Shown here: positions 5,037 through 52,328 of the stretch, piece by piece | How the letters are laid out: every line of letters starts with the position of its first letter | Numbering within the stretch: position 1 is the first letter of the stretch | Assembly (NCBI GenBank): GCA_023151185.1 | Contig: JAKLJL010000011.1 | Coordinates: forward strand, 1 to 64,000 | Direction: 5' to 3' | DNA: 64,000 nt | DNA from: Bacteroidota bacterium | Lineage (GTDB): Bacteria; Bacteroidota; JABWAT01 | Notes under the pieces: model-generated | What the model saw: only the letters and a program-made list of their open reading frames with translations | Told to the model about the DNA's origin: nothing | The model's database searches: none | Position numbers and translations under genes: made by a program

Positions 5037-5123
5037 TTGTACCATCACACGAAAGAGTAGAAGTCTGCCAACAAATTGACATTCCGGTCCAAAATTCAGT
5101 TAATTTGGCAAAAAGGAATTTCT

Positions 5124-6299
5124 ATGCGGAATCTTGCATTTTTTCTTACTCTTTTTATGGCCGGGTCTGTGTTTGGTCAACCCGTAAGTACGTTTGATTC
5201 AAACGATGAAGGCTGGCAGACGACCTCTGATGCCAAACGGTATCCGGTGCCGGATTATTTTCCAACAGGAGGAAATCCGGGTGGGTACATTTCAGCGACA
5301 GATAACACCTCCGGAATCTACTTTTACTTCAATGCACCGGCTGGATTTCTTGGCGATCAATCCCTTTTCCTGGGTGATACACTGTATTTCGATCTCATGG
5401 TAAATTATTTGGGTGATGCCAATCCATCCCTTGCCGATATCCGGATTCAGGGAGCAGGGTTCGATTTGGTCTACAATTTCGGTTCGCCTTCTGCTGCCGG
5501 ACAATGGGTCAGCTATACAATTCCGCTTACCGCTGTTTCCGGATGGAAAAAAACAAGCCTTACCGGAGGCAGCCCTTCCGAATCTGAATTCCAGGCTGCA
5601 CTATCAAGTCTAACTCTTCTCCAGATCCGGGGTGAGTACACCACCAATGTTGATATCGTTGGTCTGGATAATGTCAGGATTGGCTGGCAAACGGTTCCGG
5701 TAGAACTGGTTTCGTTTTCCGGTTCACAATCGGGCAATATTGTGACTCTGAACTGGAGTACAGCATCAGAAACAAACAATTTTGGATGGGAAGTGGAAAG
5801 GCAAGAAGTCAGAAGTCAGGAGTCAGAAGACAGATTTTCAACAGGCTCACAGACTGAAAATTGGGAAAAGGTTGGTTTTGTTGCCGGAAATGGAACCACA
5901 ACCGAACCGCAATCATATCGTTTTTCTTCACCAGTCACAAGTCCCCTGTTACCGGCTGTTTTCCGGTTAAAACAGATTGATCTTGATGGAACGGTAAGCT
6001 TCAGTAAAATTTTAACTGTAACGGTCCATCCGGAGAGACTTGCACTTCTTCAGAATTATCCCAATCCTTTTAACCCGGAAACCCAGCTCCGGTTTTACTT
6101 ACCTGAGGCAGAAAAAGTCACACTTTCTGTTTTGGATATTACTGGTAGAACGGTTGCAGTTCTTGTTAAAAATTCCGGATTTCAGGCTGGCGGGCACGCC
6201 GTTTCTTTTTCCGGAGCTGAGCTTTCAACAGGGATTTATTTGACCAGACTAGAAGTTGGGGGGACGGTTTTAACTTCAAAAATCATGCTGGTGAAGTAA
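5124..6299 (+). CDS. secreted laminin-B-like protein with T9SS sorting domain
   Basis: Predicted 391-residue extracellular protein. A signal peptide (MRNLAFFLTLFMAGSVFGQ) fixes the start at the ATG at 5124, with AAAAGGA at 5111-5117; the reading frame extends upstream to a TTG without support. Residues about 20-190 resemble a laminin B (domain IV) jelly roll (FDSNDEGWQ, TGGNPGGYIS, FLGDQS, DNVRIGW). A fibronectin-III-like stretch typical of this phylum follows (VELVSFSG, VTLNWSTASETNNFGWEVER). From about residue 308 comes the type A C-terminal sorting signal with NYPNPFNPETQLRF. The product should cross the outer membrane through the SprA machinery and be cleaved or anchored there. The ligand of the laminin-B domain is unknown. 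Confidence 0.88.
   Translation: MRNLAFFLTLFMAGSVFGQPVSTFDSNDEGWQTTSDAKRYPVPDYFPTGGNPGGYISATDNTSGIYFYFNAPAGFLGDQSLFLGDTLYFDLMVNYLGDANPSLADIRIQGAGFDLVYNFGSPSAAGQWVSYTIPLTAVSGWKKTSLTGGSPSESEFQAALSSLTLLQIRGEYTTNVDIVGLDNVRIGWQTVPVELVSFSGSQSGNIVTLNWSTASETNNFGWEVERQEVRSQESEDRFSTGSQTENWEKVGFVAGNGTTTEPQSYRFSSPVTSPLLPAVFRLKQIDLDGTVSFSKILTVTVHPERLALLQNYPNPFNPETQLRFYLPEAEKVTLSVLDITGRTVAVLVKNSGFQAGGHAVSFSGAELSTGIYLTRLEVGGTVLTSKIMLVK
5805..5832 (+). repeat. degenerate 7-bp tandem repeat inside the coding region
   Basis: About four units of a GAAGTCA-like heptamer run in a row (GAAGTCA GAAGTCA GGAGTCA GAAGACA), encoding a Glu/Ser/Arg-rich loop. A 7-bp unit shifts frame with each copy, so unit loss or gain would frameshift the gene unless it came in threes. 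Confidence 0.6.
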
Positions 6300-43154: not shown

Positions 43155-44270
43155 GTGAACCGATTTATTTTTCTGATCTGCCTGTCTTATTTCCCGCAGA
43201 CTCTGCTGGCTGGAGGTTCATTTTTTTCAAGCCGGACAGAACAGAATTTCAGGTGGATGGTTGCTTCCGGAATGCAGATCCCGGCAGAGAATCTGACCGG
43301 AAGTGTGACAACGGATCTCCGGGTTGGATCCCGCCTGGTTCCCTTCAGAATTGTGTCGGTCTCCGGTGAAATCCGGGCAGCCGGGGTGGCGCTTTCGCCT
43401 GCGTCTGACTCCCTTCTCGACTGGTATCAGAACCGGCTGTCCGACTTACTGGCAGAATGGATCCGGTCCGGTCCTGTTGAAGCCAAGGCGATGGTGATGA
43501 GTGAAAAAATCGGGATTCAGATGACCCGGTTTACAGGGCTGACGTCTGCAGACTGGATTGATCTTGCCCTTGCAGCTTCGGGTTCAGACCGTCTGGATAT
43601 TCTGCACTCCAGGTCGGCGGTTTCATTTATTTTTTCCGGAATACGGGTTACCGTTCCGGCCCGGGAGGACCTGGTTACCGGCCGTACACGTGAGGAACTC
43701 GATAACCGGCTTGCCCGGTCCCTTGCCACCCCGCAGTCTGTTTCAATCAGTCCGTTCTGTTCACTTGGCCAGGCATCCAGGGAAAAGGGAGAAGAATGGC
43801 TTCCCGGGTTTTATTCTGACCGGTTCGGACTTCAGACTGCAGCCGGATTTTCTCCGGTCTGGGATCCGGCAGCCCCGGATGCCAGCCTGAGAACTGCTTT
43901 TACTTCAGGAGCCGGGCAACTCGCCAGTAAAACCATCACCCTGAGCCATCATACCTACGGCAATCAGACCTCGGTTTATTCTCTTCCCGCTGAACGGCTG
44001 ATCAAAAACCTGTCAGCAGGTTACCAGATTTTTACAGGTCTTGAAAGCCCGGCTGGGGCAGACTCGAACTGGACGGTGACAGTTCTTGCTGTTCATCCGC
44101 AATTTGCCCACCAGCATTTGCTGGTCATCAGTGCACCGCTTGCCGGATTTTTCTCAAAAACCGGACTTGTCCTCCAGGCGGAGCTTTTTACTTTTATCCG
44201 GACGGATAACCTGAAATCTCTGGTTTCAGGTTACAAAGACAAAAAACCCGGCTACCGGATTCTTCGTTAG
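43155..44270 (+). CDS. secreted protein of unknown function, first gene of envelope cluster
   Basis: 371 residues, GTG start, signal peptide FIFLICLSYFPQTLLAGG. No family recognised. The mature protein is rich in beta-strand-like stretches (NLTGSVTTDLRVGSRLVPFRIVSV, LDILHSRSAVSFIFSGIRVTVP, NWTVTVLAVHPQFAHQHLLVIS) with a helical middle (LLDWYQNRLSDLLAEWI). No lipobox and no T9SS sorting signal, so probably periplasmic. The next gene starts 12 bases after its stop. Confidence 0.7.
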   Translation: MNRFIFLICLSYFPQTLLAGGSFFSSRTEQNFRWMVASGMQIPAENLTGSVTTDLRVGSRLVPFRIVSVSGEIRAAGVALSPASDSLLDWYQNRLSDLLAEWIRSGPVEAKAMVMSEKIGIQMTRFTGLTSADWIDLALAASGSDRLDILHSRSAVSFIFSGIRVTVPAREDLVTGRTREELDNRLARSLATPQSVSISPFCSLGQASREKGEEWLPGFYSDRFGLQTAAGFSPVWDPAAPDASLRTAFTSGAGQLASKTITLSHHTYGNQTSVYSLPAERLIKNLSAGYQIFTGLESPAGADSNWTVTVLAVHPQFAHQHLLVISAPLAGFFSKTGLVLQAELFTFIRTDNLKSLVSGYKDKKPGYRILR

Positions 44271-44282
44271 AAAGGAAGTTTT

Positions 44283-45740
44283 ATGAAGTCTTTCGGTTTT
44301 TCTTTTCTGATTTCTGTCCTGATTCCAGCCAGTGGCTTTGCCCAGGAGCTGAACCTGAAACAAAATGATTTTTTTATGGGAGAAGCTATCGGGACTGATT
44401 CTGCCCAGCTCAAGATGGAGGCCAGAAAGGAATTGATTCTGAGTATTCAGAACATTCTGTCGGTAGAATCTTCGTCTACCACTGCCGAAACCGAACGGGG
44501 AATTTCATCCTCAATAAAACAGAAAATCAACTCCTGGTCCTGGGTCAGACTTTCGGGAATCAGTTTTTCTTCGTTTGACCTGCCGGATGGAAAAGTGAAA
44601 GTCATTGCCTGGATTTCAAAATCCGATTACCGGAAATCAATGGATGATCTTGCCGGAGAACTGATCACTGCCTGGGAACTGGCATCCGAAAGGGAAAAAA
44701 CAGCAGGACTGTCCTCTGTTATTCCGGACTACTATCTCATTTATTTGAAATCCTGGTATTCGCCCGAGCCGGTCCGGACTGCCGGTATTCAGGATCTGAA
44801 ATCCTGGACCGCGGGGAAAATCAAGGGATTTCTGAAAGATGTTCTCATTTCACAGGGTGATCTAAAAGCTGATGATGGCGATGAAACTTCTTTCGAAATC
44901 CCGCTTCAGTTTTCCTATGAAAAAAAACCCGTCTCAGGACTTACCTTCCGTGAAGAAACAGAGTCGTTAACACCCAGGCCGGTAACCGATGGCCGGGGAT
45001 TGCTTGTTTCTCATTCTTTTCCTTCTTCTGGTGAAAAAATCTTCCGCCTCCGGCTCACTCCGGCATTTGATCCCAAATCCTCAGGAGGCGAACTTGACGA
45101 AATTCTGACTCTCTTTCCTCTGGAGGAATCCCGGACGGTGACGGCTGATTTCACGGCACTGATCGAGGTGGATTTTACCGTAACCCGGCTCGAAAATGAC
45201 GTCCTTCTGTTCAAACCGGTGATTAAAAACCTGAGTGTATCTTCCCTTGAATGGGATTTTGGTGACGGAAGCCGCAGTTATGAACAGGCTCCCCGCCAGA
45301 TTTATCTGGACCAGACCCAGCACTACACTGTCGGGCTTCTGGTAAATAAAAATAAGCGGTTTTCTGTGACGAAGACACTCTCGGGTACCGGTACCCTTGT
45401 TTCGGTTGAAAAAGCTCAGGTGCCGGCCGGATCAGGGGCCAAATCAGAAAAAACCGGACCAGGCGATCCGAAAAAACTGCTTCTTTCAGAAAAACAGGCT
45501 GAATCCCTTCTGTCCCTGCTTGAAGGCTACCGGGAGGCCGGTAAGCTGGTTTTTGGCTCAAAAAAGGATTTTCTCTTCCCCGAAAAGTGCTGGGTCGTTG
45601 TTTATCATCCCGAAACAAAGGAAATTAAGGGTTGGCTTGAACCAGCCGATGGCGGGTACCGTGATGTGACAACCGGTAGAAAAACTTCCGGACTAAAAGA
45701 CTACAAAGGGCTTTCGGCTATCTATATTGACTTCAAATGA
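44283..45740 (+). CDS. secreted LPP20-like protein with PKD domain
   Basis: 485 residues with signal peptide FSFLISVLIPASGFAQ. After cleavage comes a segment like LPP20/FlgT-N proteins (FFMGEAIGTDSAQLKMEARKELILSIQNIL), then an unrecognised middle. Near residue 318 is a PKD-type beta-sandwich (LSVSSLEWDFGDGSRSYEQAP ... HYTVGLLVNKN), and a charged linker leads to a final unknown domain. AAAGGAAG precedes the ATG. Its stop overlaps the next gene start (ATGA). The family assignment of the first part is moderate; function unknown. Confidence 0.65.
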   Translation: MKSFGFSFLISVLIPASGFAQELNLKQNDFFMGEAIGTDSAQLKMEARKELILSIQNILSVESSSTTAETERGISSSIKQKINSWSWVRLSGISFSSFDLPDGKVKVIAWISKSDYRKSMDDLAGELITAWELASEREKTAGLSSVIPDYYLIYLKSWYSPEPVRTAGIQDLKSWTAGKIKGFLKDVLISQGDLKADDGDETSFEIPLQFSYEKKPVSGLTFREETESLTPRPVTDGRGLLVSHSFPSSGEKIFRLRLTPAFDPKSSGGELDEILTLFPLEESRTVTADFTALIEVDFTVTRLENDVLLFKPVIKNLSVSSLEWDFGDGSRSYEQAPRQIYLDQTQHYTVGLLVNKNKRFSVTKTLSGTGTLVSVEKAQVPAGSGAKSEKTGPGDPKKLLLSEKQAESLLSLLEGYREAGKLVFGSKKDFLFPEKCWVVVYHPETKEIKGWLEPADGGYRDVTTGRKTSGLKDYKGLSAIYIDFK

Positions 45741-46744
45741 GTATAAATCTGAAACCCGCCGGTAAGAAACCAAAAACTGCAGGATTCCGGAAACTGACCG
45801 GCCTGTTTTGCCTGTTGCTCATGACACTCCCTGCTGTTGGTCAGAACCGGACGGAGGTCTCCTTTTCTGCATCGGGTGAACTGGAAGATCTTCTTTCTGA
45901 GCGGACAGGGAAAATTCTGACTGCTTTCAATCTGGCGGATGCGAAAAAAGTACAGCCCAAAATTCCCGGAGACTGGATTGCCAAAGGAGCCGGCAGATCG
46001 CTGAAAGAACTTTGGTCAGGGAGGTCCTTTTTTTGCCCGGAAACGGAACTCAGGACCAATCTGATTCACCGCCAGGACGGCCGGCTTGAAGTCAGGGGAA
46101 TTCCGGTCAGAATGAAAACTGATGGTGATTCTACTGCTTCGGAAGAATTGGTTCTGGTGTTTACCCCTGCCGGTAAACTCGAATCGGTCTATTTCGGTGT
46201 AGAAAACGAAAAATACACCACCCTGATGAGCCAGGGAGGAACCGTAAGTGACATCCGCCGCAGACAGATCATTCTCGATTTTGTTGAAAACTTCAGGACA
46301 GCCTATAACCGGAAAGATCTGACGTATCTGAAAACGGTCTTCAGTGATAATGCCCTGATCATTGTCGGGCATGTGGTGCAGGTTCAGAAAGACAACTCCG
46401 GTTATCTGAATGAAAATCTCGGCGAGCAGAAAGTTGAACTGATCCGGCAAAGCAAACAGGATTATTTGGCCGCACTGGAGCTGGTTTTCAGGAAAAACCA
46501 GTTTATCAAGGTCGGATTTGAAGAAATTGAAATTGTTCAGCACCGGAAGTTTAATTCGGTTTACGGGGTTACACTTCTTCAATACTGGAACTCAGCCGGT
46601 TATTCAGACAAAGGGTATCTGTTCCTGATGATTGATTTCAGGGAAGAAGATAAACCTCTGATTCACGTCAGAAGCTGGCAGCCACAAAAATTCACCGAAC
46701 CCGATTCAGTTATTTCGCTGGGTGATTTCGAAATCATTGAATAG
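45737..46744 (+). CDS. secreted NTF2-like protein of unknown function
   Basis: 335 residues. A basic N-terminus precedes a signal segment (LTGLFCLLLMTLPAVGQ). The C-terminal half resembles the NTF2/SnoaL cone: IILDFVENFRTAYNRKDLTYLKTVFSDNALIIVGHV, a helical insert (YLAALELVFRKNQFIKVGF) and YGVTLLQYWNSAGYSDKGYLFLMIDF. It overlaps the previous gene by four bases. NTF2-like folds bind small molecules or proteins; no catalytic residues can be named. Strictly linked to its neighbours by overlap and spacing. Confidence 0.65.
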   Translation: MSINLKPAGKKPKTAGFRKLTGLFCLLLMTLPAVGQNRTEVSFSASGELEDLLSERTGKILTAFNLADAKKVQPKIPGDWIAKGAGRSLKELWSGRSFFCPETELRTNLIHRQDGRLEVRGIPVRMKTDGDSTASEELVLVFTPAGKLESVYFGVENEKYTTLMSQGGTVSDIRRRQIILDFVENFRTAYNRKDLTYLKTVFSDNALIIVGHVVQVQKDNSGYLNENLGEQKVELIRQSKQDYLAALELVFRKNQFIKVGFEEIEIVQHRKFNSVYGVTLLQYWNSAGYSDKGYLFLMIDFREEDKPLIHVRSWQPQKFTEPDSVISLGDFEIIE

Positions 46745-46807
46745 AAACCTTTTAACCGGCCATCCCGTAAACAAACTGAACCAGTTTTAATTTTATCCGG
46801 AACCCTC

Positions 46808-48841
46808 ATGAAAAACCTGATTGGATTTCTGTTGGGCCTTTTTCTGATTCCTGCAGCCGTGCTTCCGCAGGAACTGAGGCAGTTTAAAGTCAGGGAAGAA
46901 ACCCGCCCGGCTTCAATTCCTGTCTTTACCCAATTTCCAAATGATGCTGCCGTAATTATTTATTCTTCAATCCCGCAGATCTCCTTTGAATCCAATACTG
47001 AAGGAATTCTGGCAAACAAATCTGTGGACGGAGAGTCGAAATACACCTTGATTTTACGGACGGAAACCCAAACTCTCACCGTTAAGTCACCCGGGTTTAT
47101 CGAAGCAAAAATCAAAATTCAGCGGATGCAGCCGAAAGATGTGAAATATTTTTCGATTGAAGCATCAGCCCGGTCTTTTGATCCCGAAAAGGGGGATCTG
47201 GTTTTAAAAACTGTTCCGGCCGGGGCCCGGATCCTGATTGACGGAATGCCTGAATTTGATCATTTCACACCCTTTTCCCTGACTGGGTTTGAGGCAAAAA
47301 CCTACAAAATCACCCTGGTCAAAGAGGACTATGACACGGTCAGGATTACTGCAGAAATCAAAAAGGGTGAGAAAATCAGCAAAGTTGCCGAGATGACTCC
47401 CCGGTTTGGGCTGATTGATCTTCAGACTGCCCCTGACAATGAATTCCGGGTTGATCAGGTTCTGATGCCGTTTGAACCGGGAGTTCCCGTCAGAGTTCCG
47501 GTTGGAAAGCACAGCCTGTCCCTCTCAAAGCCCAGATACATTCCGGTTTCGCAGCAGGTCGAAATCGGTCCGAATGATAATCCGCTTCTGGCAGTTCCTT
47601 TTAAAGCAACCCTGATCCCCGATTTCGGAACATGGACGTTCAAGGTCACTCCGTCGGGCGCCAAAGTTTATATTGACGACAAAGTCACCGATATAACCGG
47701 CGGACCTGTCGAAATACAGTCCGGAAAACGGATGTTCCGGGTTTACAGGTCGGGATATGACGATACCACATTTACAGAATCCATCCGCCGTCTCGAAAAC
47801 CGGGTTGTCGCCATTGACCTCAGGCGGCAGACTGGAAAACTTTACGTAACCAGCGATCCGGATGAAGCTTCCGTGTTTCTTGGGGATTCCCTGATCGGGT
47901 ATACACCCTTTGTCAATGAAGCAGTACCAACGGGTGTTTATGAACTCTCTATCCGGAAAGACCGGTATCAGACAGTAGTTTTCCCGGTGAACCTCAGGAG
48001 GGGTGAAACCGTAACCCGGTCTGCCGATCTGCAAACCCAGGGCCGCCTGACGGTTACCGGAACCAATGGCGCAACATTTAAAGTGTTTTCCAGGAATAAT
48101 TCCCCGGTCGAATTTGAAGGAACCATTCCCCTGATTTCAAAAAAACTTCCCCCGGGGCCCTATACCATTTACTTCACTTACCCGGGTTACGAAAAGGAAA
48201 GTATGAACTTTACCATTTCGGATCAGGACGAGATCCTGAATTTTGATCTGACCCAGACTGACGGAAAGTTTTTCAGGTTTACGGCTTTCGGAAATACCCG
48301 GATTTACAATCTTTATAATGACCGGACCGGGCTTGGATTTACCTGGGCCCGCCAGATTTTTACAAAGAAAATGATGTCTGAACTGACGGGAAAAAAGGTG
48401 GATAGCCACCAATTGGAAAGTTACAATGTTGAAATCCCGTATGAAGCGGCACCTTTCAGGCTGGTTCTTGGATACGGTATCAATGCAAAAAAATCACTGT
48501 ACGCAGCCTATTCACCGGTTACTGAATCGGGCGAAAAGGTGGACGGTTCTCTCAGGTTTGAAAACTATTTCCTGACCTTTTCGTATACGCCGTTTGTCCT
48601 GGCTGAACGGTTTTCACCTTCGGTCGGATTCAGAATGGAAAAGCTGGATATGTATTTCAGAAACAACCTCACATCCGAAAGAAAAAAGAAATCGGTTACC
48701 AACGGGTCTCTTTCCTTTGATCTGAATTTTTATCTGCAGAATCATGGGGCAACGCCGTTTCTGAAAGTGTCTTATCTGCCGTATGAAGGGAACAACTGGT
48801 CTGAAGCCAGAACCAGTATCCACTTCGGAATCCTGTTTTAG
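46808..48841 (+). CDS. PEGA-repeat protein with C-terminal outer-membrane-type beta domain
   Basis: 677 residues, signal peptide ending LIPAAVLPQ. An N-terminal beta domain (VIIYSSIPQISFESN) is followed by at least three PEGA-like units: GDLVLKTVPAGARILIDG near 133, GTWTFKVTPSGAKVYIDD near 275 and GKLYVTSDPDEASVFLGDSLIGYTP near 345. A fourth looser unit follows (GRLTVTGTNGATFKVF). The last 190 residues alternate amphipathic strands (FRLVLGYGINAKKSLYAAYSP, ENYFLTFSYTPFVL, SLSFDLNFYLQNHG) and end in a strand finishing with Phe, suggesting an outer-membrane barrel. The PEGA region may bind peptidoglycan or surface layers. Function unknown. Confidence 0.75.
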   Translation: MKNLIGFLLGLFLIPAAVLPQELRQFKVREETRPASIPVFTQFPNDAAVIIYSSIPQISFESNTEGILANKSVDGESKYTLILRTETQTLTVKSPGFIEAKIKIQRMQPKDVKYFSIEASARSFDPEKGDLVLKTVPAGARILIDGMPEFDHFTPFSLTGFEAKTYKITLVKEDYDTVRITAEIKKGEKISKVAEMTPRFGLIDLQTAPDNEFRVDQVLMPFEPGVPVRVPVGKHSLSLSKPRYIPVSQQVEIGPNDNPLLAVPFKATLIPDFGTWTFKVTPSGAKVYIDDKVTDITGGPVEIQSGKRMFRVYRSGYDDTTFTESIRRLENRVVAIDLRRQTGKLYVTSDPDEASVFLGDSLIGYTPFVNEAVPTGVYELSIRKDRYQTVVFPVNLRRGETVTRSADLQTQGRLTVTGTNGATFKVFSRNNSPVEFEGTIPLISKKLPPGPYTIYFTYPGYEKESMNFTISDQDEILNFDLTQTDGKFFRFTAFGNTRIYNLYNDRTGLGFTWARQIFTKKMMSELTGKKVDSHQLESYNVEIPYEAAPFRLVLGYGINAKKSLYAAYSPVTESGEKVDGSLRFENYFLTFSYTPFVLAERFSPSVGFRMEKLDMYFRNNLTSERKKKSVTNGSLSFDLNFYLQNHGATPFLKVSYLPYEGNNWSEARTSIHFGILF

Positions 48842-48871
48842 AGTCTCATCAACGAAAAAGGAGAGAGTAAA

Positions 48872-49462
48872 ATGAAACGCACGATGCTTATGCTGACCCT
48901 GATTGCCGGTCTTTCCGTTTGGTTTGCCGGCTGCGGCGGCGGAAAAGAAACCACCAACATTCACCAGAAGGCCAATGATGACATCATGGAAAATATTCCT
49001 GACTGGTACATGGAGCCTCCGAAAAATGATGATGAATACCTCTGGGCAACCGCCTCAGAAGTTTCCCGTGACCTTCAGATGGCTGTTAACAAAGCCAAGA
49101 CGACGGCAAACAGCGATCTGGCCCGGCAGATGGAAAACAATATTGACGTACTAACCAAGCGGTTCAGCCAGGAAACCGGAATGAATATTGACTCCAAAAT
49201 CCTTACCGATTTCTCTGAAACCACCAAACAGCTCAGCCGCCAGGCCCTTATAGGTGTTTCTGAAGAGAAAAAAGAAATCCGGAATGAGGAAGGCGTTTTC
49301 AGGGCTTATGTACTGATGAAGCTTCCGATGGGGAAAATGAAAGAAAATCTGTTGAACCAGATCAAAAAGGAAAATGAGCTTTATACCGCACTGAAGGCCA
49401 CAAAAGCCTATCAGGAGTTGGATGAGGCGGTAGAAAAACTGGATGAACGCCGTAAAAAATAA
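48872..49462 (+). CDS. LPP20-family lipoprotein
   Basis: 196 residues with lipobox LSVWFAGC (C21). MENIPDWYMEPPKNDDEYLWATASEVSRDLQMAVNKAKTTA is the typical LPP20 opening (PxWYxxPP, then a helix of regularly spaced Ala). The body (SDLARQMENNIDVLTKRF, LSRQALIGVSEEKKEIRNEEGVFRAYVLMKLPMG) also fits, and a charged coiled-coil tail follows. A strong AAGGAGAG site precedes it. Last gene of the five-gene cluster, ended by a terminator. LPP20 proteins are outer-membrane lipoproteins of mostly unknown function. Confidence 0.85.
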   Translation: MKRTMLMLTLIAGLSVWFAGCGGGKETTNIHQKANDDIMENIPDWYMEPPKNDDEYLWATASEVSRDLQMAVNKAKTTANSDLARQMENNIDVLTKRFSQETGMNIDSKILTDFSETTKQLSRQALIGVSEEKKEIRNEEGVFRAYVLMKLPMGKMKENLLNQIKKENELYTALKATKAYQELDEAVEKLDERRKK

Positions 49463-49501: not shown

Positions 49502-49537
49502 ACGCCGTGCCGGACTTTTCCGCACGGCGTTTTTATT
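49502..49537 (+). terminator. intrinsic terminator of the envelope cluster
   Basis: ACGCCGTGC (49502-49510) pairs with GCACGGCGT (49522-49530), then TTTTATTT. The start codon of the next gene is only nine bases after the stem. Confidence 0.85.
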
Positions 49538-49538
49538 T

Positions 49539-50366
49539 ATGACCATAATCCAGCTTGAAAATTTAAAAAAATCATTCGGAACCAAGCAGGTCCTCCGGGG
49601 GGTAACCATTGAAGTCCGGGAAGGCGAGAAATTGGTTATCATTGGCCGGTCCGGATGCGGCAAGTCGGTTCTTCTGAAGCATATTGTCCGGCTTTTAAAA
49701 CCTGATTCGGGCCGGGTAACGGTTTACGGACAGGAAATGGGAACCCTGCGTGATTCTGCCCTGTTCGACATCCGGAAGCGGTTTGGCTATCTTTTTCAGG
49801 GTGCAGCCCTGTTCGACTCAATGACGGTTGGTGAGAATGTGGCTTTGCCTCTGGTCGAAAATTACCGGTTTACCGAAGATGAAATCCGGGAAAAAGTTGC
49901 CGAAAAACTGGAAATGGTCGGCTTGCCCGGGATTGAAAAACTGAAACCCTCAGAGCTGTCCGGCGGGATGAAGAAGCGGGTTGGGCTGGCCCGGGCTATC
50001 GTTACCGATCCGGATGTGATTCTGTATGATGAGCCTACGACCGGGCTTGATCCGGTTATGTCGGATGCAATCGACAGTCTGATCAATGATCTGGCGTCCC
50101 GGCTGAAGGTAACCTCGATTGTGATTACCCATGATATGGCCTCTGTACAGAAAGTGGCTGACCGGGTGATCATGATTCATGACGGGCTGGTTCATTTTGA
50201 AGGAACACCGGGCCGGCTTTTCGAGTCGAATGATCCTGTTGTTCAGCATTTCGTGAGCAGAGTGTCGGCAGATGATCAGGATATCCTTCACGAAATGGCA
50301 GATCTGACCCAAAAGGGCCGGTCTGAAAAGAGGCCGGATTCCATGACCTCCATCAAGAAAAAATAA
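49539..50366 (+). CDS. mlaF: MlaF/Ttg2A-type ABC transporter ATPase
   Basis: 275 residues. Walker A IGRSGCGKSVLLKHI, Q-loop YLFQGAALFDSMTV, signature LSGGMKKRVGLARAI, Walker B VILYDEPTTGLDPV and switch His THDM. The IGRSGCGKSVLLKHI and ALFDSMTVGENV wording is that of the phospholipid-transport (Mla/MCE) ATPases. It stands alone: no MlaE permease or MCE-domain gene is next to it, so its partners must be elsewhere. No Shine-Dalgarno can be seen, because the terminator hairpin ends nine bases before the ATG. A leaderless or read-through message is possible. Confidence 0.88.
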   Translation: MTIIQLENLKKSFGTKQVLRGVTIEVREGEKLVIIGRSGCGKSVLLKHIVRLLKPDSGRVTVYGQEMGTLRDSALFDIRKRFGYLFQGAALFDSMTVGENVALPLVENYRFTEDEIREKVAEKLEMVGLPGIEKLKPSELSGGMKKRVGLARAIVTDPDVILYDEPTTGLDPVMSDAIDSLINDLASRLKVTSIVITHDMASVQKVADRVIMIHDGLVHFEGTPGRLFESNDPVVQHFVSRVSADDQDILHEMADLTQKGRSEKRPDSMTSIKKK

Positions 50367-50444: not shown

Positions 50445-51326
50445 ATGAAAAAAATGGCGTATCTTCTTTCCCTGACTCTGATCGCTTCCCTGTCATTCTT
50501 TAGCTGCGACAATGCTGAAGATAACGAAGCACCGACAATTACTGAACTAAAAATAAATGGAGTTGCTTCTGACGGTTCTTCTGCAGAACTAAAAGATTCC
50601 AAAGTTACGATTAGTTTTACCGCCACCGATAATGATAAAGTTGCGTCTATCGATTTGAAGGAAGAGGGTGCATCAACATCCCTTGACAACCAAAAAATTG
50701 ACAAGTCAACTACCCCGTACTCTTTTGACTACAACTTCACCAAAGCTGTGAAATTGATTATTACTGTTGTTGATAATGATGATAAATCAGTTAACAAAAT
50801 TATCACACTTAGTATTGATCCAGGAGTAAATGCAACGACTACGTCCCTTTCACTAGGGGCTCAGGATGATCCGGCAAACGGTAGTTTTCTTGGAACAACA
50901 GATTTTGCCGTTTACAAACAGGCAGATGCATTTGCAAACCAGGCAAAAGTGGATATTCTTTATTTTTATGATGCAACCACGACAACAGCATATAATGCTT
51001 CTTTAGCTGCTCCGAACGACGAATTTGCTACTGGTTTGTTTACTGGTACCTCCGGGCTTGCCAATTGGAAAACAAAAAGGAATGCGACCATGCTGAAGAA
51101 AGTAGCCATTAGCGCTTCTGATTTCAGTGGGGCTGTTAAGGCAGTTACTGTTAAGGCAATTTATGATGCATCAACTGTTTCCGGTTCCAGTAAAGCAACT
51201 AAATTGGCTGCCAATGATTACGTTGCCTTTAAAACAGAAGCTGGAAAGTACGGACTTGCTAAAGTTGTTGCCGTTGCAACTGGAGTTGCCGGTTCAATCA
51301 CTCTGGATGTTAAAGTAGGAAAATAA
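50445..51326 (+). CDS. lipoprotein of unknown function, paralogue A
   Basis: 293 residues, strong AAAGGA site, lipobox LIASLSFFSC (C18). The first mature domain is immunoglobulin-like (APTITELKINGVASDG, KVTISFTATDNDKVASIDLKEEG, KLIITVVDNDDKSVNKIITLSIDPG). The second is a beta-rich domain holding DILYFYDATTTTAYNASLAAPND and a final AANDYVAFKTEAGKYGLAKVV. It aligns end to end with the next gene's product. Codons and composition (Lys, Asp, Thr, Ala) are more AT-leaning than neighbours, as in abundant surface proteins. Function unknown. Confidence 0.75.
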   Translation: MKKMAYLLSLTLIASLSFFSCDNAEDNEAPTITELKINGVASDGSSAELKDSKVTISFTATDNDKVASIDLKEEGASTSLDNQKIDKSTTPYSFDYNFTKAVKLIITVVDNDDKSVNKIITLSIDPGVNATTTSLSLGAQDDPANGSFLGTTDFAVYKQADAFANQAKVDILYFYDATTTTAYNASLAAPNDEFATGLFTGTSGLANWKTKRNATMLKKVAISASDFSGAVKAVTVKAIYDASTVSGSSKATKLAANDYVAFKTEAGKYGLAKVVAVATGVAGSITLDVKVGK

Positions 51327-51458: not shown

Positions 51459-52328
51459 ATGAAAACACGAGTTATTTTTTTTCTGATCCTGTTTCTGGCA
51501 GGTGCCTTTGCAGGCTGCAGTGAACTGAAGGACCGGAATCCGCCAGCAATCCGGGATCTGACCGTCAACGGCTGGTCGGTCCGGGACGGCCGGGTATGGG
51601 CTGTATCCGGTGACAGTTTGAATTTTTCCTTCACCCTTACCGATGGCGGCCTTGTTAAAAGCTGGTCGGTCAAAGAAAACGGAGTTGTACTACCGGGCGG
51701 ATCTGCTTCGGGACTTTCAACTGACAGACTGGACGTTTCGGTTTGGTATCATTTTCAAAAAACTTCATCAATTCAGATTTCAGTCAAGGATGATGACAAT
51801 GAATCCGCCTCGGTTTCTTTTTCGGTGACCGAAGATCCGGGTGTGAAACTGGTAGAATCCGTCACGCTTTCGGCCCAGAATCAGGTAACCCCGGGGAATT
51901 TTGTCAGCCTGTTAACGGGTGCTGTTTTTACTCACCAGCAGGTTCTGCAGAATGCTGCCGGTATTGATGCTGTATTCTACACTGGTCTCAGCGGACTTTC
52001 CACCCTGGCATCGCCGGCAGACCCCGATGCAGCCCGGATTTATAATAACTCCTTTACAGGTCTCACGAAATGGTCTGTCAGAAATCCCACCCAGTTTGCA
52101 GCCTCTTATTCCAATTCCAGGGCATTTGACCAGATCAGCAGAGCATTTGCCCTTTCCCTGGGCTGGTATGAACAATCAGAAAAAGCAGAATCGAAAGTAT
52201 CCGGTTTGGCAGAGGGGTCTATTGTCAGTTTCAAAACAAATTCAGGAAAACTGGGAGTCCTGCGGGTAAAATCGGTTACACCCGGCCCGGATGGGCAGAT
52301 CGTTTTTGACATCAAGGTAGTGAACTGA
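51459..52328 (+). CDS. lipoprotein of unknown function, paralogue B
   Basis: 289 residues, lipobox FLAGAFAGC (C20). It has the same plan as the preceding gene product: PPAIRDLTVNGWSVRDG, LNFSFTLTDGGLVKSWSVKENG, SIQISVKDDDNESASVSFSVTEDPG, then DAVFYTGLSGLSTLASPAD and EGSIVSFKTNSGKLGVLRVKSV at the end. The two therefore arose by tandem duplication and have diverged strongly. Its stop lies two bases from the stop of the convergent photolyase gene, with no terminator visible between. Confidence 0.75.
   Translation: MKTRVIFFLILFLAGAFAGCSELKDRNPPAIRDLTVNGWSVRDGRVWAVSGDSLNFSFTLTDGGLVKSWSVKENGVVLPGGSASGLSTDRLDVSVWYHFQKTSSIQISVKDDDNESASVSFSVTEDPGVKLVESVTLSAQNQVTPGNFVSLLTGAVFTHQQVLQNAAGIDAVFYTGLSGLSTLASPADPDAARIYNNSFTGLTKWSVRNPTQFAASYSNSRAFDQISRAFALSLGWYEQSEKAESKVSGLAEGSIVSFKTNSGKLGVLRVKSVTPGPDGQIVFDIKVVN

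Follow-up and report, generated by a model that had tools for sequence, protein, structure and literature searches.

The type IX secretion system (T9SS), with PorKLMN, SprA/Sov, PorV, its accessory proteins and its cargo, occupies the same envelope and is found in the same genomes as the five-gene unit described here. To our knowledge, how the giant proteins exported by T9SS are held and arranged at the cell surface is poorly known. Other described systems share single parts with the unit: the eight-stranded outer-membrane barrels of the OprF/NspA type, the LpoB/LPP20/TPR lipoprotein clusters (peptidoglycan-synthase activators), and the LPP20-fold proteins, including Lpp20/HP1454 of H. pylori, FlgP, and FlgT. 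Among the last, FlgP builds rings beneath the outer membrane in flagellar motors (PMC12222027).

The window, that is, the whole stretch of 64,000 nucleotides that was analysed, belongs to a Bacteroidota MAG whose nearest named relative is UWPOB_BACT1 (a single-sequence search with E3 returned one near relative). The unit comprises the following genes and a 3' structure.

43155..44270, plus strand: E1, GTG start, 371 aa, exported orphan family
44283..45740, plus strand: E2, 485 aa, with an LPP20-like domain followed by helices, two beta-sandwiches, of which the second is PKD-like, and an alpha/beta domain at the C-terminus
45737..46744, plus strand: E3, 335 aa, exported NTF2-like protein, overlapping E2 by 4 bases
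46808..48841, plus strand: E4, 677 aa, PEGA/beta-sandwich stalk and predicted C-terminal outer-membrane barrel
48872..49462, plus strand: E5, 196 aa, LPP20-type lipoprotein
49503..49538, plus strand: terminator-like hairpin and T-run, from sequence and fold, between E5 and the ABC gene at 49539

An earlier note on this DNA had described five consecutive genes (43155-49462) with intergenic gaps of 12, -4, 63, and 30 bases, all coding for exported proteins; the ORF coordinates reproduce these gaps exactly, and each of the five proteins carries a hydrophobic export signal at its N-terminus, with a lipobox in E5. E1-E5 are real genes under purifying selection, because dN/dS against a congener was ~0.25 for E1, ~0.13 for E2, ~0.15 for E3, ~0.09 for E4, and ~0.07 for E5, rough values of which the direction only is safe, dS being near saturation. 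The hairpin after E5 has a folding energy of about -22 kcal/mol for 55 nt, a second small hairpin included; the automatic terminator scan did not report it, probably owing to the loop-length and bulge limits of the scan.

The ATG of an MlaF-like ABC ATPase gene (49539-50363) follows immediately after the T-run 3' of E5. This gene has no adjoining permease gene, three MlaE permease genes are present elsewhere in the window genome, and its synteny with E5 is retained in G001, G002, and G003. Two adjoining lipoprotein-like genes (50445-51326 and 51459-52328) are apparent tandem paralogues, the same relatives matching both.

Four genomes from two genera have all five genes in the same order: the window genome, G001, G002, and, from the other genus, G003; G001 and G002 also have extra paralogous clusters with tandem E4 copies. 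The E3 profile was found in 24 of the 395 genomes of the phylum and in 15 of 171 genera, the weakest matches being distant relatives or fragments, and no plasmid copies of E3 were found. E1 is present in eight of the 395 genomes, always together with E2-E3 and always adjoining E2, and full-length E2 is restricted to genomes with E3, the remaining E2 matches being PKD-only or LPP20-only. Five families (f1, f7, f26, f32, and f54) have E1-E2-E3 side by side, with a short E2 in f32 and f54; in f14 and f16, E2-E3 occur either by themselves or accompanied by E4/E5. E2 and E3 are fused into a single protein in three genera (g40, g80, and g6), and g137 and g157 carry the fusion as a second copy, which makes at least five genera. 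Because of the conserved order, the exclusive occurrence of E1 in E2-E3 genomes and the E2-E3 fusions, the five-gene set is a real co-evolving unit and not a collection of scattered homologues. The scatter that the earlier note had named as evidence against its proposal is not seen for E1-E3; it applies in part to E5, whose family extends to 65 genomes, vs. 24 for E3. The presence of the E5 family apart from E1-E4 is also what favors the view that unrelated exported proteins share an operon by coincidence, an explanation largely refuted by the same conservation across families and, in our judgment, highly improbable. The reading of the set as one assembled complex is thus partly supported overall: E1-E3, with or without E5, very probably act as one functional unit, and they would also be likely to form one physical complex.

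The soluble part of the unit contains the following recognizable regions.

44364..44618, plus strand: LPP20 (SHS2-like) domain of E2, residues about 28-112, from PDB profile and Foldseek matches to 4kzs
45126..45383, plus strand: PKD-like beta-sandwich of E2, residues about 282-367, from PF18911 (E=6.5e-5, below the cut-off) and PKD structures in profile and fold searches
46244..46711, plus strand: conserved C-terminal half of E3, NTF2-like, residues about 170-325, from the alignment (the Pfam match itself covers 238-301)

E1 showed no credible relative in Pfam, NCBIfam or the PDB and no match to the E2 or E3 profiles, so that it stays as unrecognised as it had first been called. The N-terminus of E2 matched 4kzs by profile (E=1.9e-4) and by Foldseek (E=0.012, probability 1.00), although Pfam reported no LPP20 match (PF02169) for the window's E2; together with the PKD match, which lies below the cut-off, this agrees with its description as an LPP20-like/PKD protein. 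Its signal is an ordinary export signal and not of the lipoprotein type. The E2 model (pLDDT 80) comprises the LPP20-like domain, helices, two beta-sandwiches, and the C-terminal alpha/beta domain, for which no clear relative was found. The top Foldseek match of E2 was the Aureispira grappling-hook protein; because it spans Ig-like modules, we took it as fold noise. The NTF2-like nature of E3 was also borne out, since Cds6_C was matched in 10 of 10 E3 orthologues (best E=1.7e-6), the window protein alone giving 0.025.

E4 had been described as a PEGA-repeat protein with a barrel-like end, and both parts were recovered.

46877..48268, plus strand: E4 stalk, about six beta-sandwich modules, four stretches being PEGA by Pfam (AF2 model, mean pLDDT 84)
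48323..48838, plus strand: E4 barrel domain, residues 506-677, eight strands with a terminal Phe, from AF2 and from Foldseek matches to NspA and OprF

The four PEGA stretches gave a Pfam E-value of 1.4e-36, and the C-terminal domain matched NspA (1p4t, TMt 0.68) and the OprF barrel (4rlc, TMt 0.61) by Foldseek, both with probability 1.00. We predict with confidence that E4 ends in an eight-stranded barrel, as judged from the AF2 model and the fold search, while the pTM of the model is low (0.35), making the packing and arrangement of its domains unreliable. The barrel fold is shared with the OprF/NspA type, but in E4 the extra modules are PEGA sandwiches that precede the barrel; a C-terminal OmpA peptidoglycan-binding domain was not detected by Pfam, and the barrel itself is the C-terminus. 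Both ends of even-stranded outer-membrane barrels face the periplasm, and the E4 stalk should therefore be periplasmic. Several E4 paralogues lack barrel-like ends, which we count against our preferred explanation.

48923..48934, plus strand: E5 lipobox FAGC, from the sequence

E5 scored against PF02169 with E=6e-4 and 20.6 bits, under the curated cut-off of 25.9 bits, and its profile matched PDB 5ok8 with E=7.8e-5; a simple lipobox pattern is present in 10 of 12 E5 relatives. The profile match and the FAGC lipobox together agree with the earlier assignment of E5 as an LPP20 lipoprotein. The set does contain two LPP20-like members, E5 and the N-terminus of E2, by profile homology to 5ok8 and 4kzs, respectively; compared directly, their profiles matched with E=5.5e-4 and a probability of only 30. 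Hence the fold of Lpp20/HP1454, FlgP, and FlgT is matched by E5 and the E2 N-terminus by profile, and by E2 also in the fold search, and E5 is a lipoprotein. These two proteins, and the rings that the LPP20 fold forms in flagellar motors (PMC12222027), are what would make the unit a ring-like or collar-like part of machinery for gliding or of a non-flagellar appendage, resembling the FlgO/FlgP/FlgT disks. We regard this as quite improbable, since LPP20-fold proteins have other roles as well, none of E1-E5 is a gliding or motor protein by Pfam or NCBIfam, and the window genome has no flagellin (N-terminal domain, PF00669). PEGA-barrel, NTF2-like, and E1 partners are absent from the described assemblies. 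A flagellar role was rejected on the ground of the missing flagellin; a role in anti-phage defence was also rejected, as no PADLOC model matched E1-E5.

In other genomes, E5 relatives without E1-E4 lie beside LpoB (PF13036, E=1.5e-39), beside TPR proteins and additional proteins of the LPP20 kind, and beside a lytic transglycosylase resembling MltC; their other neighbors away from E1-E4 are a double-LPP20 protein (F250) and the F514 family. The window genome itself has such a cluster, in which the gene of a second LPP20 lipoprotein lies next to those of LpoB and of a further LPP20-like protein (L025 7061-9225, contig C24). The unit could thus be a complex for cell-wall and outer-membrane maintenance, which would tether the outer membrane and control how peptidoglycan is made or turned over, much as LpoB-type lipoproteins do, giant neighbors (see below) being lineage-specific coincidences; that no cargo gene lies beside the window's own unit fits this as well. 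The unit shares the E5-type LPP20 lipoprotein with the LpoB/LPP20/TPR clusters; E1-E4 are, however, absent from those clusters, and PF13036 is found in none of E1-E5. The window operon also has no peptidoglycan enzyme and no cell-wall-binding domain recognised by Pfam or NCBIfam, no such genes lie alongside the E1-E3 core at the loci examined, and the patchy spread (24 of 395 genomes) is odd for a housekeeping function. On balance we consider a maintenance complex possible, and only slightly less probable than the reading that we put first (see below).

The F514 family is recurrent, about 500 aa long and without a Pfam match (L066 6329-7870, L132 9240-10811, and L134 5455-6939), and by eye its conserved Cys/His/Asp motifs resemble a transglutaminase-like fold; a shorter relative is encoded in the window genome (G000:C11:890017-890928). 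A Caspase-domain and PEGA protein (L125 10485-11630) was seen near an E5-family lipoprotein.

None of E1-E5 matched a T9SS component family in Pfam or NCBIfam, and none has a T9SS sorting domain (PF18962 or CHU_C, none at E<=1), in agreement with the earlier statement that no T9SS tail is present, and this sets the five proteins apart from both the secretion system and its cargo. No described system with this set had been known to the earlier note either; in the open-access literature we found nothing relevant on the set, including PEGA with LPP20 or with T9SS, and there was no match to a T9SS, flagellar or defence family. The component folds are known, and it is the combination, together with E1, that is new to us.

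Giant T9SS cargo is nevertheless adjacent in some lineages. The cluster is near a giant T9SS-tailed protein on the same strand in four genera (g40, g80, g36, and g137) of three families. The genes of g40 and g80 are arranged as F514 - E2E3 - E4 - F319 - giant, the giants being of 3556-5274 aa and the gaps between successive genes from E2E3 to the giant ~5 to 250 bases, with E5 and the double-LPP20 F250 upstream and divergent; the giant scanned from these loci combines FG-GAP and TIG with a short stretch matching TcdB-midN and with a T9SS tail. A giant of ~2750 aa with a T9SS tail begins 125 bases after E3 in g36, its end meeting a run of N, and in g137 a 1796 aa T9SS protein lies beyond E2-E3 on the same strand, the genes in between coding in turn for a protein of 355 aa, a short protein with PEGA, and a protein of 397 aa. 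Distant E3 relatives adjoin T9SS proteins of 2500-2750 aa in g51 and g20. A count of 7 of 15 genera would be too generous, as it takes in these two as well as G136, whose 2071 aa T9SS giant lies ~11 kb from E3 and was left out of the strict count. No giant cargo lies beside the cluster in the window's family, and none was seen at the f5, f14, f32, and f54 loci. By a rough density estimate, which counts clades that are related, a giant lies near a random locus with a chance of ~4%; for the strict set of close E3 loci, three of about nine families (f7, f16, and f50), the binomial probability is ~0.006, before shared ancestry is considered. The giant neighbors, which the window sequence by itself could not have revealed to the earlier note, are a hint of a substrate and of a role in display, a lead rather than a proof. 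T9SS tails occur in 23 of 23 cluster genomes tested, vs. 39 of 52 others, a co-occurrence that says little because the tails are widespread, only f8 among the sampled families being without them.

Among the giants seen were L076 531-11198, with ~29 FG-GAP repeats, TIG domains, a short TcdB-midN-like stretch, and a T9SS tail, and the T9SS-tailed L081 2617-18441. Four E3- or PEGA-type proteins near T9SS giants resemble each other in a membrane-like segment at the C-terminus and in an end rich in Pro (PPGRP).

L071 8764-9954, L073 8259-10055, L075 8735-9913, and L078 15498-16565: PPGRP-ended E3-/PEGA-type proteins near T9SS giants

T9SS tails that score over the cut-off are present on ~110 proteins of the window genome, and the window contains a gene that we take, by its length rather than by a model, to be SprA-like. 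A Laminin-B domain protein with a T9SS tail is encoded at 5076-6299 of the window.

The reading that we put first, with moderate to low confidence and only narrowly ahead of the maintenance complex, is an outer-membrane/periplasm scaffold that assists T9SS-dependent surface display. The eight-stranded barrel would place E4 in the outer membrane, and the stalk, with its six or so beta-sandwiches, would hang into the periplasm, where it could reach the cell wall. The LPP20-fold lipoprotein E5 would probably be held at the inner leaflet of the outer membrane, and E1, E2, and E3 would be soluble in the periplasm, E2 and E3 working as one piece. By analogy with the ring-forming FlgP (PMC12222027), the LPP20 folds could form a self-assembling collar around E4. 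We infer that such a scaffold may hold or organise the outer membrane at the places to which T9SS delivers its cargo for display, giant surface proteins in particular, and that the unit of the window may serve cargo whose genes lie elsewhere in the same genome. The boldest form of this scaffold reading, an undescribed Bacteroidota machine spanning outer membrane and periplasm in which LPP20-fold collars surround a PEGA-stalk barrel and anchor or assemble the giant surface proteins secreted by T9SS (1800-5300 aa, of the FG-GAP, TIG, and cadherin types), seems to us unlikely.

Even if the role proves to be in the cell wall, the unit would bring at least two families (E1 and E3) without described function and would tie LPP20-fold lipoproteins to a PEGA-barrel partner. 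As a conserved but sporadic envelope set that lies near giants in some lineages, it may offer a direct test case for the surface display of giant proteins exported by T9SS.
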